Origin: Caldilineales bacterium
GTDB lineage: Bacteria; Chloroflexota; Anaerolineae; J102
Direction of reading: 5' to 3'
Assembly (NCBI GenBank): GCA_019695115.1
Contig: JAIBAP010000037.1
Location: 1 to 56,533, forward strand
Length of the DNA: 56,533 nt
Shown: piece by piece, positions 86 through 35,317 of the stretch
How the letters are laid out: each line of letters opens with the position of its first letter
Position numbering within the stretch: the first letter of the stretch is position 1
Notes under the pieces: model-generated
Told to the model about the DNA's origin: nothing
Databases searched by the model: none
The model's input: the letters and a program-made list of their open reading frames with translations, nothing else
Translations under genes and position numbers: made by a program

Positions 86-290
86 ACTCTGTCTTGGGGC
101 CTGAGAGATTGGGCGAGAACCGTTGCAGCGGACTCTGCTTTCCCCCTTCGGCGCCGGCCTTCGCAATCGAAGCGGCTCTCCAGAGTGCTGTCGGCGGGCG
201 ATCCTTTTGCCTGAGAGTTTGGGGACCTCCGCCCAGGGAGGCCCCTTGCACCTTCGGCGACCCACCACTTCGTGGATCCTCTCTCGCACG
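86..290 (-). ncRNA. Tandem glycine riboswitch (two aptamers)
   Basis: Read on the minus strand, two copies of the glycine aptamer core occur in series. The first has a GAGAGAGG opening, CGCCGAAGGTGCAA, and CTCTCAGGCAAAAGGA (about 290-200). The second has CTCTGGAGAG, CGCCGAAGGGGGAAA, and CTCTCAGGCCCCAAGACAGAG split over about 187-86. This is the classic cooperative two-aptamer arrangement. A strong intrinsic terminator follows at once, so glycine binding would be expected to control read-through into a gene left of the window, in most known cases switching a glycine cleavage operon on. Confidence 0.94.
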
Positions 291-382
291 CTTCGATCAG
301 CAACTATGCGCTTGTTTGGTTGTGGTCGTGTGGCGAGATCGGTTGGCAAACGTCAACCTTCATGCCACACCAGGCAAGTATA

Positions 383-1075
383 TCACCGAGCGGTGGCGTC
401 CGTCAACCCACGCTCGGCCAAAACGGCCATGAGCGCCGCCTGCACCTCCTGGGGCGAACGATCGCCATCGATCTCGGCCAGCAGCCCTTTGGCATAATAA
501 TAGCCCACCAGCGGCGAGGTCTGCTTGTAGTACACGTACAGGCGATTATGAACCGTATCCGGGTAGTCGTCGGCGCGTTGCAGCAGTTCGGCGCCATCCA
601 GATCACAACGTCCTGCCACCTGCGGTGGGTCGAACTCGATATGATACACGGCGTTGCAGAGCGGGCACAGACGGCGCCCGGTGATGCGACGCATCACCAC
701 GCCGTCGTCCACCGCCAGCAGCGGGGCCAGGTCCAGGCCGCCGACCGCCTCCAGCAGCCGATCCAGCGCCGTCGCCTGCGCCAGCGTGCGCGGGAAACCA
801 TCGAGGATGACGCCGGCCGCCGCGTCCGGCTCGGCCAGGCGCGCCTCGACCATGCGGATGGTCACCTCATCGGGCACCAGGTCGCCCTGGTCGATAAAGG
901 TTTTCGCCAGCCGGCCCAATTCGGTCTGGTTCTTGATGTGGTGGCGAAAGAGATCGCCGGTAGAAACCTGGGGGATGCCCAACACCCCGGCCAGCGAACG
1001 GGCCTGAGTTCCCTTCCCCGAACCAGGCGGCCCCAAAAACACAAGGAAGGTGCGAGAGTTGGCATTGGCAGTCAT
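383..1075 (-). CDS. adk: Adenylate kinase
   Basis: 230-residue cytosolic adenylate kinase catalysing ATP + AMP to 2 ADP. The N-terminus carries the P-loop GPPGSGKGTQ. DGFPRT marks the AMP-binding region, and the LID domain has a CPLC ... CDLD zinc-type motif (Cys-Cys-Cys-Asp). The ATG at 1075 is chosen because it is preceded by GAGG 8 bases upstream and puts the P-loop at the usual place; the frame stays open 34 codons further but that part is unlike the family. A good promoter lies at 1168-1196. The gene stands alone, divergent from the DarA-like gene, with the riboswitch behind it. Confidence 0.95.
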   Translation of the reverse strand: MTANANSRTFLVFLGPPGSGKGTQARSLAGVLGIPQVSTGDLFRHHIKNQTELGRLAKTFIDQGDLVPDEVTIRMVEARLAEPDAAAGVILDGFPRTLAQATALDRLLEAVGGLDLAPLLAVDDGVVMRRITGRRLCPLCNAVYHIEFDPPQVAGRCDLDGAELLQRADDYPDTVHNRLYVYYKQTSPLVGYYYAKGLLAEIDGDRSPQEVQAALMAVLAERGLTDATAR

Positions 1076-1107
1076 AACCACGGCCTCGTGAGTAGATGAC
1101 GTAGGAA

Positions 1108-1138
1108 CGGCCTGCGGAGTCAGACGTCTCGCAGGCCG
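1108..1138. other. Hairpin in adk leader
   Basis: CGGCCTGCG and CGCAGGCCG form a perfect 9-bp stem around a 13-base loop, inside the predicted adk 5' leader. There is no T-run, so it is more likely a leader structure than a terminator. Confidence 0.45.
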
Positions 1139-1167
1139 CCAGTGGGAGCAGAGATTACATTGACCTG

Positions 1168-1196
1168 ACTTTAGCACGGCTTGCCGCGAAGGTCAA
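1168..1196 (-). promoter_or_regulatory. Predicted sigma-70-type promoter of adk
   Basis: On the minus strand TTGACC (1191-1196), a 17-base spacer and TAAAGT (1168-1173). Predicted transcription start is near 1161, giving a leader of about 86 bases to the adk ATG. Confidence 0.55.
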
Positions 1197-1254
1197 GGTT
1201 GGAGTAGACTTATGCGCGGTTACGGACTCTCAACCCCGATTCGGACGCTCCGCC

Positions 1255-1923
1255 ATGCAACTTCTCCTCGCCATCATCCACGACGAAGACGCCGACCCGC
1301 TCGGCAAGCGCCTCAACGCCCTGGGTTTTCGCATCACCCGCTTTCAGACCGTGGGCGGCTTCCTCAGCGCGGCCAACGCCACCGTCGTCATGGCAGTACA
1401 TGACGACGAGATCGAGCAGGTGCTGGCCGTCATCCGCTCCGTCTGTCGCACCCGCCACACCATCATCAGCCCCATCCCCTGGGCGGTCGAGCCGGGCCAG
1501 GCGCCGTTTGCCGCGCCGGCCGCCCCGTTGGAAGCCGAAGTGGGCGGGGCCACCGTTTTTTGTCTGCCGGTGCAAGGATTCCACCGTCTCCCCGGCGCCC
1601 TCTCCCCATCTCCCGAACCCTCCCCCCGACCAAGAGGCAGTACGATGAACCTTGTCCTCGCCATCGTCCACAACGACGACGCCGCCGCCATCGCCAACGC
1701 CCTTCTGGCCGCCGACCACCGCCTGACGCGCATCAACACCGCCGGCGGCTTCCTGCGCCGTGGCAATGTCACCCTCCTCATCGGCGTCGAAGCCGACAAG
1801 ACCGAGCAAGTGCTGGCGATCATATCGGCCCACGCCCGCGCCCGCGGCGCCACGGCCGAAGAAAGCGCCAGCCAGGGAGCCACGGTCTTTGTCCTTGAGG
1901 CGGCGCGCTTCCTGCAAATCTGA
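1255..1923 (+). CDS. Two-domain cyclic-di-AMP receptor-like protein (tandem DarA/CdAR)
   Basis: 222 residues made of two consecutive PII-like CdAR (DUF970, DarA/YaaQ) domains, about 1-110 and 131-222, joined by a proline-rich linker. Canonical DarA is a single domain of about 110 residues that trimerises and binds c-di-AMP. The second copy keeps the signature TAGGFLRRGNVT; the first has TVGGFLSAANAT, so its GN binding-loop motif is altered. Domain 2 starts with a Met (1645) preceded by an AAGAGG Shine-Dalgarno, so a separate short product by internal initiation is possible. The stop codon directly abuts the lon start, indicating one transcript. Function is inferred from the family. Confidence 0.8.
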   Translation: MQLLLAIIHDEDADPLGKRLNALGFRITRFQTVGGFLSAANATVVMAVHDDEIEQVLAVIRSVCRTRHTIISPIPWAVEPGQAPFAAPAAPLEAEVGGATVFCLPVQGFHRLPGALSPSPEPSPRPRGSTMNLVLAIVHNDDAAAIANALLAADHRLTRINTAGGFLRRGNVTLLIGVEADKTEQVLAIISAHARARGATAEESASQGATVFVLEAARFLQI

Positions 1924-4431
<2,508 letters not shown>

Positions 4432-21304: not shown

Positions 21305-21352
21305 GGGGCCGGGTGACGGGGAAGCGGATGGTAGACGGGAAAGGGGCAGTTC

Positions 21353-21380
21353 GCAATCCGAAATCCGCAATCCGAAATTC
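21353..21380. repeat. CGCAATC/CGAAATC heptamer array
   Basis: Four heptamers alternate CGCAATC and CGAAATC. The same units appear inside copA near 32611-32633, which ties the intergenic and intragenic copies together. Confidence 0.65.
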
Positions 21381-32096: not shown

Positions 32097-32345
32097 ATGA
32101 ACACCGCCATTTCCATCCCCGATCCCATTTTCGAGACCGCCGAGCGTCTCGCCCAGACCCTGCGCATCTCACGCAATGAACTCTATACGCGTGCGCTTTC
32201 CGCCTACATCCGCTACCGCAACCGATACCCCCGCAATCGCAAGGAATTCGTCACCACAAAAACACTGCTGAAGGCCATCGCACCGGCGGCGATGATGGGA
32301 TTGAGCAGCCCCAGGGCGGCAAAGGGGATGCCGATGATATTGTAG
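32097..32345 (+). pseudogene. Truncated ribbon-helix-helix antitoxin gene running into copA
   Basis: The first 45 or so residues (AISIPDPIFETAERLAQTLRISRNELYTRALSAYI) match RHH antitoxins of the MazE/CopG type. From about 32213 the frame runs through the antisense of the copA 3' end, and residues there look like shadow sequence. The normal C-terminal toxin-binding part and a partner toxin are missing. Probably a remnant cut by the arrival of the copper operon. Confidence 0.5.
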
Positions 32346-34732
32346 ATGAAGGCCCAGAACAGGTTCTGGCGGATGGTGCGCATCGTCCCCCGGCTGAGCG
32401 CCAGCCCCCGGCTCACCCCCGCCAGGTCGCCGCTCATCAGTGTGATGTCGGCCGTCTCCATCGCCACATCCGTGCCGGTGCCCAGGGCGATGCCGATGTC
32501 GGCCTGAGCCAGCGCCGGAGCGTCGTTGATACCATCGCCGACCATGGCGACGAGGCGGTGGGGATTGGAGATTGGAGATTGGTGATTGGAGGTTGGGGAG
32601 TCCGGCGCGTTTCGATTTCGCAATCCGAAATCAGACATCTGCAATTGCAGTTCCTTCACCTGGGTGGCTTTGTCTTGGGGCAGGACTTCGGCGTAGATGT
32701 CGTCGATGCCGGCCTGGTGGGCGATGGCAGCGGCGGTGCGGCGGTTGTCGCCCGTCATCATCACCACCTGCAGCCCTTGTGTGCGCATTTCCGCCACAGC
32801 TGCCGCCGAACCGGGCTTGATCGTATCGGCCACGGCCAGCAGACCGGCGGTTTCGCCATCGACCGTCACCATCATCGCCGTCTTGCCCTCGCTTTCCAGA
32901 CGGGCGAGGGCATCGGCCAGGGTGGAGGAGGCCATTCCGGCCAGCCGCGTGCTCCCCACCACCACCAGCCGCCCCTCCACCTGCGCCCGCACCCCGGCCC
33001 CGGTCACGGCCTCGAAGCCGGAGGGAGCCGCCAGGTCGAGCGCCTGCGCCCGGGCCGCAGCGACGATAGCCTGGCCCAGGGGATGCTCGGAGCCGCGCTC
33101 GGCCCCGGCAGCCAGACGTAGCAAATAGGATGCGGGCGAGAAGCCGTTGGCCGCGGGCGGCAGCCAATCGGGGGCGGCGATCACATCGGTGAGCGCCGGC
33201 TTGCCCTCGGTCAGGGTGCCGGTCTTGTCCAGCACCACCACCTTCACCGCCTCGGCCCGCTCCAGCGCCTCGCTGTTCTTGAACAGAATGCCGTTCTGCG
33301 CCCCTTTGCCCGTGCCGACCATGATCGCCGTCGGGGTGGCCAGGCCCAGCGCGCAGGGGCAGGCGATGACCAGCACGGCCACGGCGTTGATCAGGCTGGT
33401 AGTGAAGCCGGCGTCGGCCAGGAAATACCAGCCCAGGAAAGTGAGGGCCGCGATGCCCAACACCGCCGGAACAAAGATAGCCGAGACGCGGTCGGCCAGC
33501 CGCTGGATCGGGGCCTTCGAGCCTTGCGCCTCCTCCACCAGCCGGATGATCTGGGCCAGGGCGGTTTCGCGGCCCACGCGCGTGGCCTGCACCCGCAACA
33601 TTCCCTGCTTGTTGAGGGTGGCGCCGATCACCTGATCGCCCGCCTGCTTGTCCACGGGCGCCGCCTCGCCGGTCAGCATCGACTCATCGATGGCGCTCTC
33701 GCCGCTGAGGACGATGCCATCTACGGGCAGTTTCTCGCCCGGCCGCACCACCACGATGTCGCCCACCCGCACCTGAGCGACAGGGATCTCGCTCTCGCTG
33801 CCGTCGCGCTCGACGCGGGCCGTCTTCGGGCGCAAGCCCATCAGCGACTTGATGGCGGCGGAGGTGGCGCCTTTGGCGCGCGCTTCCAGATACTTGCCCA
33901 GGCGGATGAGCGTGATGATCAAGGCCGAGGTCTCGAAGTAGACGTGATCGCCCAGGTCGGCGCCGGCCAGCCCGCCCACGATGACGGCCACGCTGTAGAA
34001 GTAGGCCGCCGATGAGCCGAGGGCGATGAGCACATCCATGTTGGCGGCGCCGTTCTTCAGCGCCTTGTAGCCATTGACATAGTAATCACGGCCGACATAG
34101 AACTGAACCGGCGTCGCCAGCGCCCACATCACCCAGTTGACCCAACCGGCGTGCGCCCAATGACCCAACAAACCGAGGTCGCGGGCCATCGAAAACAGAA
34201 ACAGCGGGATAGTGAAGGCCAGGCCGGTGAGCAACAAGCGTCGCTGGCGGTCGAGTTCGGCCTGCCGCGCCTGTCGCTCGGCATCCTCGACCTCGGCTTC
34301 GTCCTCCCCCGCCGCCTCGATCACCTGATAGCCCAGGTCGGCCACCAACTCCTTCATCGCCCCGACATCGACCATGGCCGGGTTGTAGACCACCGACGCC
34401 TTCTCGCTGGCCAGGTTGACGTTGGCCTGCTCGACCCCCGGCATCCGCTTGAGATTGCGCTCGATGGTGGTCGAGCAGTTGGCGCAGGTCATGCCGGCAA
34501 TGGGCAGTTCGACCCGCGCCGTGGCCACGCCGTAGCCCAACTCCCCGATCAGGTCATGGATGGCGGCTGGCTGCACCACGGCAGGGTCATACACCACTCG
34601 CGCCCGCTCGGTGGCCAGATTGACCGATGCCTCCTCCACGCCGGCCATGCGCTTCAGATTGCGCTCGATGGTGGTCGAGCAGTTGGCGCAGGTCATGCCG
34701 GTGATGGGGAGGACAAGCTGTTGGCTGGTCAT
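32213..34732 (-). CDS. copA: Copper-exporting P1B-type ATPase with two HMA domains
   Basis: 839 residues. Two N-terminal HMA domains (GMTCANC at residues 12-18 and 80-86), the transmembrane CPC motif [12 protein letters not shown], phosphorylation site DKTGTLTEG, and hinge [16 protein letters not shown]. It pumps Cu(I) out of the cytosol. Between KELQ and [10 protein letters not shown] about 28 extra residues ([20 protein letters not shown] and onwards) are encoded by the same heptamers seen between genes; the frame is intact. It is the last gene of csoR-copZ-glutaredoxin-copA. ATG at 34732 begins the first HMA domain. Confidence 0.95.
32555..32645. repeat. Heptamer repeat array inserted in frame in copA
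   Basis: Plus-strand units GGGATTG, GAGATTG, GAGATTG, GTGATTG, GAGGTTG at 32561-32595, then CGCAATCCGAAATC at about 32617-32631. The first set matches the intergenic array at 35241-35317 and the second the array at 21353-21380. It adds about 28 residues to CopA just before the conserved GDGIND hinge. Confidence 0.85.
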
Positions 34733-34766: not shown

Positions 34767-35015
34767 TCAACCGGTCTCTGGCAAGCCCAGGAGCTGCGAG
34801 AGGCGCTTGCGGTTGAAGCCCACGACCGGTTCTTCACCCACGAGCGTGACCGGAGTCGAGAAGACCTGCAAGCGTTCGAGCACGGCCAACGCCTCCTCGT
34901 CTTCGATCACATTGCGTTCCTCGAAGGCGACGCCCATTTGAGAAAGCCACGCTTTCTCGCTGTTGCAGAACAGTCAGCCGGGTTGGGTGAAAAGGACAAC
35001 GTGCGGGTCTTCCAT
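34767..35015 (-). CDS. Glutaredoxin-like protein with in-frame UGA (candidate selenoprotein)
   Basis: Reading through one TGA gives 82 residues of glutaredoxin type: [16 protein letters not shown] at codon 14 (34974-34976), LFC, then [31 protein letters not shown] holds the cis-Pro and [14 protein letters not shown] the last helix. The UGA stands exactly where the first active-site Cys belongs, giving UxxC. A perfect 8-bp hairpin with loop GUG begins 15 bases after it. CopZ ends 10 bases upstream and copA starts 34 bases downstream. A nonsense mutation or base-call error cannot be excluded from this sequence alone; no sel genes lie in the window. Confidence 0.8.
34940..34958 (-). promoter_or_regulatory. 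Candidate bacterial SECIS element
   Basis: On the minus strand GAGAAAGC pairs perfectly with GCTTTCTC around the loop GTG. The loop begins 23 bases after the UGA, within the 16-37 base window for bacterial SECIS hairpins, and has the required G at the loop start. Confidence 0.7.
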
Positions 35016-35240: not shown

Positions 35241-35317
35241 GAGAACGGAGATTGGAGGTTGGGGATTGGGGATTGGGGATTGGAGATTGGGGATTAGGGA
35301 TTAGAGATTGGGGATTG
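35241..35317. repeat. GGGATTG/GAGATTG heptamer array between csoR and copZ
   Basis: Eleven consecutive 7-base units, GAGAACG, GAGATTG, GAGGTTG, three GGGATTG, GAGATTG, two GGGATTA, GAGATTG and GGGATTG. It is the longest array in the window and the closest relative of the one inside copA. Confidence 0.85.

Follow-up and report, generated by a model that had tools for sequence, protein, structure and literature searches.

The predicted copper pump CopA of a Caldilineales bacterium (Chloroflexota) carries an expanded loop in its P domain, and the additional DNA includes heptamer repeats that are dispersed through the same genome. It is likely that this dispersed heptamer DNA was captured passively and in frame by a permissive surface loop of the enzyme. 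Unrelated bacteria possess inserts at the same CopA loop, and thus the loop looks like a recurrent absorber of stray repeats. The gene lies in a stretch of 56,533 nucleotides (the window), which belongs to a genome of 5.99 Mb in 135 contigs. The features under discussion are listed in Table 1.

Table 1. Features of the copA region and of the repeat arrays in the window.
Feature	Position	Strand	Description or basis
copA, P1B-type Cu+ ATPase (predicted)	32213–34732	minus	839 aa from Met at 34732; translation, Pfam, NCBIfam
Expanded P-domain loop, KELQ to VAMVGDG	32552–32644	minus	31 residues; alignments, AlphaFold2
Heptamer array A, GGGATTGGAGATTGGAGATTGGTGATTGGAGGTTG	32561–32595	plus	five imperfect units; G-rich on the plus strand, C-rich in copA mRNA
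Linker, non-repeat	32596–32613	unassigned	18 nt; no second genomic copy found
Palindromic element B, GATTTCGCAATCCGAAATC	32614–32632	unassigned	predicted 7-bp hairpin
Glutaredoxin-like ORF	34776–35015	minus	Pfam Glutaredoxin, 41.5 bits with TGA read as a residue
Intergenic heptamer array	35248–35317	plus	10 units; lies 18 nt ahead of the start codon (ATG) of a small minus-strand HMA-like gene
Array of CGCAATCCGAAATC units (family B)	21352–21378	unassigned	repeat search

Judging from its sequence, CopA is a complete P1B-type copper ATPase. The frame, which is open upstream to 34837, contains two HMA domains, E1-E2_ATPase and Hydrolase according to Pfam, and scores above the cut-offs of both NCBIfam models TIGR01525 and TIGR01511 (585.6 bits for the latter, cut-off 397). 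The HMA domains with their CxxC and the motifs CPC, DKTGT, SEHP and GDGIND are all present without a stop codon, and the similarity to named Anaerolineae (66% to CopA of Anaerolineae bacterium CG2_30_64_16, L091) by itself makes a placement in Chloroflexota probable. In domains, motifs and fold it resembles the solved P1B-1 relatives (7r0g, 8q74 and 7xun), but has 26 additional residues ahead of GDGIND; the best solved match to the AlphaFold2 model was 7r0g (Z 34.5 over 637 residues, rmsd 2.6). The model (mean pLDDT 83.8) retains the helix before the insert and the strand after it (727–732), and residues 712–723 have pLDDT below 50. The fold is thus predicted to be intact and the insert to be disordered. 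The codons 3′ of the insert are constrained relative to congener G001 (dN 0.05, dS 0.96), a comparison that covers mostly the time predating the insertion, as most of the divergence may be older than the insert. The pump is taken here as presumably functional.

An assembly error or a dead gene is hardly credible as the source of the unusual loop. Repeats do cause false joins, and the genome is in 135 contigs, but copA sequence stands on both sides of the insert in a single frame. The other match of this genome among those listed is only 43% identical, so that no second close copA for a false join appears among them. Against a dead gene stand the complete set of catalytic motifs and the absence of stop codons.

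In the ORF adjoining copA that resembles glutaredoxin, an in-frame TGA occupies the first cysteine position of the CxxC (PG-U-LFC), with an 8-bp hairpin shortly downstream. Its match to the NCBIfam Uxx-star (seleno)protein model is below the cut-off. On these sequence features it may possibly encode a selenoprotein.

The expanded loop comprises ORF residues 732–762, counted from 34837. The CopAs of the same genus have 5 residues here (LQAEGKV and LQNQGRV at the site), which gives a net gain of 26 residues or 78 nt. As was proposed in the preliminary description, the protein was compared with its close relatives, and the insert proved to be absent from both congeners; the DNA alignment with their copA genes opens a single in-frame gap of 78 nt. 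That description placed an insert of about 28 residues between KELQ and the conserved stretch. The position holds, while the size had to be corrected. It also supposed that the family is contiguous at this point, which does not agree with the relatives: 21 of 27 with a measurable loop share a 13-residue segment of identical length that ends in 5 residues such as AEGKV (truncated L014 and L025, which has an in-frame stop, were left out of this count). The frame is indeed preserved. The explanation offered for it, namely that three heptamers make seven codons, fails because the array measures 35 nt, which is no multiple of 21, and the net insert 78 nt.

The origin of the insert from the genome's own heptamers, claimed initially, was confirmed by several searches. 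The loop DNA has a lag-7 self-match of 0.62, a value equalled by 0 of 500 shuffles. The two-unit probe GGRATTGGRGATTGG has 89 matches in this genome, and the reversed control has none; in two genomes of the same genus the probe gives 0 and 1 matches. These counts indicate that repeats of the host entered copA. Matches to GGRATTGGRGATTGG are present in 15 of the 61 genomes of the relatives set, the genome under study included, and the family B probe TTTCGGATTGCGRA, with 19 matches in this genome, was detected in 16 of the 61. The two separate arrays that had been noticed outside copA exist (Table 1), and the core of the palindrome GATTTCGCAATCCGAAATC is also present in other dispersed genomic copies. 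A 96-nt query covering the insert retrieved only itself over the whole length, and its first ~40 nt match dozens of sites. Together with the counts in the congeners, this points to a recent expansion of the repeats in the lineage, part of which was received by copA. The array in copA has few GGG runs. Neither GGGATTG nor GAGATTG units contain a stop in any of the six frames; GGTTATT units, which produce stops on the C-rich strand, do not occur in the insert.

Tandem arrays of variable length, such as those observed here, could also have grown in place, slippage having extended a seed that was present by chance, with no DNA arriving from outside the loop. This is improbable since the insert combines two repeat families and a linker. 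Both families also adjoin at other loci, for example L032, L070 and L072, which suggests that ready-made composite DNA was available.

It was further assumed in the preliminary description that the arrays spread as units. This was not borne out: array length in this genome ranges from 2 to 19 units, and there was no sign of a fixed unit, of terminal inverted repeats or of a target duplication. The search for the last two revealed the self-similarity of the array and one 8-nt inverted pair extending outside the insert, and nothing else. Palindromic elements located in frame are known in Rickettsia (PMC10969869), and it might be thought that a mobile unit of this or of MITE type brought the array into copA. 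Those elements are ~150 bp long and form defined families encoding a conserved peptide, whereas the copA arrays are tandem, variable and without fixed ends, and the insert belongs to no family of fixed length with shared ends. Three matches resembling Y1 transposases were found in this genome and none in its congeners, but array-poor relatives contain equally many, up to five, and the whole insert is unique, with only its array part recurring. A mobile unit is therefore very unlikely, and Y1/RAYT transposases were rejected as movers, as their match counts fail to track the arrays.

Arrays inside other genes were sought as well. Four in-frame arrays of this genome are flanked by recognised domains on both sides (copA, L059, L061 and L056). 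The family-2 glycosyltransferase gene of L059 (770–1960) is the second clear case. About 91 residues separate VIDAS from GLPAQRN, compared with 21 in the orthologue of the same genus; they include a heptamer array of 19 units and another tandem (RAEDGGQ), and the length of this segment varies in other relatives too. The CoxM/CoxS-like fused frame (L061) and the polyketide-synthase-like frame (L056) are likely further examples, though in both the array separates domains of a single open frame and might be an inter-gene array with readthrough. The early suggestion that arrays can add protein sequence is borne out by the glycosyltransferase and, similarly, by the Nostoc ATPases described below.

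The recurrence of inserts was examined with a site pattern of two CAATC heptamers joined to the GDGIND codons in one orientation, which was scanned over 84,980 species genomes. It yielded 19 stretches, and 17 of them have an insert at the loop: 11 from Nostocales, where they fall in two paralogous P1B ATPases, three from Anaerolineae, two from Gallionellales/Nitrosomonadales and one from Bacteroidales. The other two stretches (L074 and L084) have ordinary short loops. The inserts of Nostoc and of the other Anaerolineae look like repeats. The inserts of Bacteroidales and Gallionellales/Nitrosomonadales are non-heptameric, and those of L076, L078 and L080 contain no clear heptamers (lag-7 p 0.682, 0.01 and 0.038, respectively). 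Three loops of the L091 CopA (232–3237) contain a repeat-like insert, and the KELQ-VAMVGDG loop is one of the three. In the Nostocales paralogues L077, L079, L085, L088, L090, L115 and L119, a variable insert of 24–33 aa was also seen between membrane segments, at about reference position 440–445.

The 19 stretches are a biased set because the pattern requires heptamers. A less biased set was composed of 28 newly fetched loci, the best orthologues in 116 Nostocaceae genomes, regardless of insert status. The loops of these orthologues exceed the reference by 2 to 42 aa, and in 13 of the 28 the excess is at least 8 aa. When insertions of at least 8 aa were counted against the majority core (757 columns), seven of eight proved to be located at the CopA loop, in a comparison of loops inside one Nostocaceae paralogue only. 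The exact CAATC pattern occurs in 3 of 118 Nostocaceae genomes; all three were already in the 84,980-genome scan, and one was the centre of the sample draw. The pattern evidently undercounts Nostocaceae inserts, since 13 of the 28 orthologues have an expanded loop that contains other repeats. Of 37 expanded loops, 24 display lag-7 periodicity (p < 0.01); among the 13 less biased inserts 6 do so, and the remaining 7 miss this threshold.

In a tree of 39 rows, built with the loop excluded from the alignment, the inserted state requires eight changes, seven of which are forced by starred branches. Sister species can possess unrelated insert sequences (e.g., L132 and L135, L087 and L097). In L131 the loop insert, the one case traced by DNA search, is built from two or more repeats that are scattered through the same genome (43 matches, self counted). 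According to the preliminary description, the same insertion made of unrelated DNA in other phyla would reduce the resemblance to the heptamers to chance. Same-site inserts do exist in other phyla, but the result does not point to chance: the host-derived insert of L131 and the many heptameric inserts indicate a permissive site.

Meanwhile, expansion of the loop is rare in the phylum of the bacterium under study. The sole match of the site pattern among 400 phylum genomes is this genome itself, and a loop gain of at least 8 aa was found in 0 of 28 Chloroflexota relatives; the maximum among the 27 with a measured loop is +5, and 21 have no additional residue. A universal hotspot is ruled out by these counts, and the loop seems to act as a trap in lineages rich in repeats rather than universally.

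The insert might also have a function: a longer loop, or the C-rich mRNA or G-rich template strand, would tune the activity or the translation of CopA. GGGATTG oligonucleotides form G-quadruplexes in vitro (PMC4692102), and in the model the loop would lie directly ahead of the hinge strand. Little probability is assigned to this explanation, because the inserts of sister species differ, as neutral turnover predicts, and AlphaFold2 assigns no structure to the insert. The RNA of the insert does not fold better than shuffled sequences (z 0.56), and an RNA hairpin function was rejected on this ground.

The position of the arrays relative to genes was analysed for 53 arrays, in the window and in 43 stretches covering probe-match sites outside it. 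On the C-rich strand, 29 of the 53 are followed within 20 nt by an ATG that opens an ORF of 80 or more codons, and on the G-rich strand 3 of the 53, with 9% for random positions. The copA insert is among the 29, as it ends 15 nt before the ATG of VAMVGDG. The count took only ATG starts with ORFs of 80 or more codons, and for this reason the small HMA-like gene beside the 10-unit intergenic array was missed. In their enrichment just ahead of ORFs, with the G-rich run on the non-coding strand, and in the genome-wide dispersal of tandem 7-nt GGGATTG-type units, the arrays conform to the G-rich heptamer SSRs/STRRs; Nostoc and Xanthomonas repeats have been reported to prefer such positions too (PMC4692102). 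Many of the 53 arrays were seen to end 1–15 nt before start codons, leaving little space for a Shine-Dalgarno sequence, with the C-rich strand as the sense strand.

Such an arrangement could mean that some process places C-rich arrays directly ahead of ATG codons and that the ATG of VAMVGDG was its target in copA. Both the intergenic arrays and the copA cases fit this explanation. The counts in one Nostocaceae genome are 7/37 against 1/37 (random 5%), and the C-type units of the Nostoc loops end about 8–10 nt ahead of the corresponding ATG. Nevertheless, targeting is improbable. Selection or the availability of intergenic space explains arrays before start codons equally well, the in-frame arrays of L056, L059 and L061 have no such in-frame ATG, and the Bacteroidales insert precedes VAFVGDG, where there is no ATG. 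The same low probability applies to the corresponding view of the loop as a true hotspot of an active process, in which start-codon leaders would be the normal targets and the conserved ATG of the ATPase motif a decoy in both cyanobacteria and Chloroflexota.

Passive capture, the explanation preferred here, would most likely have proceeded as follows. Template switching, ectopic recombination or slippage, and not transposition, would copy repeat DNA into the loop. The insert would survive if its length is a multiple of three and it is free of stop codons; such an insertion can persist because the turn is extendable and GGGATTG/GAGATTG units contain no stop in any frame. The helix-to-strand turn ahead of the GDGxND hinge would lengthen without breakage of the fold, and the model and the recurrence suggest that the exposed loop tolerates the insert. 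The same loop would have received inserts repeatedly in other repeat-rich lineages, with passive tolerance as the probable cause of the recurrence.

Vioque reportedly described heptamers with an occasional intragenic position in 1997. G-rich heptamer repeats have been found in Nostoc (GGGGATT/GGGATTG) and Xanthomonas (GGGAATC) (Rehm et al. 2015, PMC4692102). That paper mentions neither Chloroflexi nor P-type ATPases, and no mapping of inserts onto proteins or recurrence at one loop was found in it. Units of 7 bp, as here, can sit inside a working gene in the case of STRRs, which there is an RNA gene and here encodes a protein loop (PMC2670836). Dispersed repeats in frame within protein genes are represented by the Rickettsia palindromic elements (PMC10969869), and short-repeat satellites are scattered in Chloroflexus aurantiacus (PMC6749651). 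No paper on repeats in CopA loops or on a recurrent CopA site was found in the open-licence PMC literature. Heptamer arrays, including intragenic ones, are therefore known, and the recurrent CopA loop is the real new part.

Intergenic repeats are usually regarded as non-coding, but here a single defined loop of a well-studied pump has, in distant bacteria, acquired repeat or other additional DNA on many occasions. Caution is needed with the NPQSPIS-type tracts of protein databases, as they represent repeat DNA translated in frame. The inserts form a natural series in which one can study the conversion of dispersed repeats into protein sequence, the amount of added sequence that a catalytic domain accepts next to its hinge, and the route by which heptamer arrays reach new sites.
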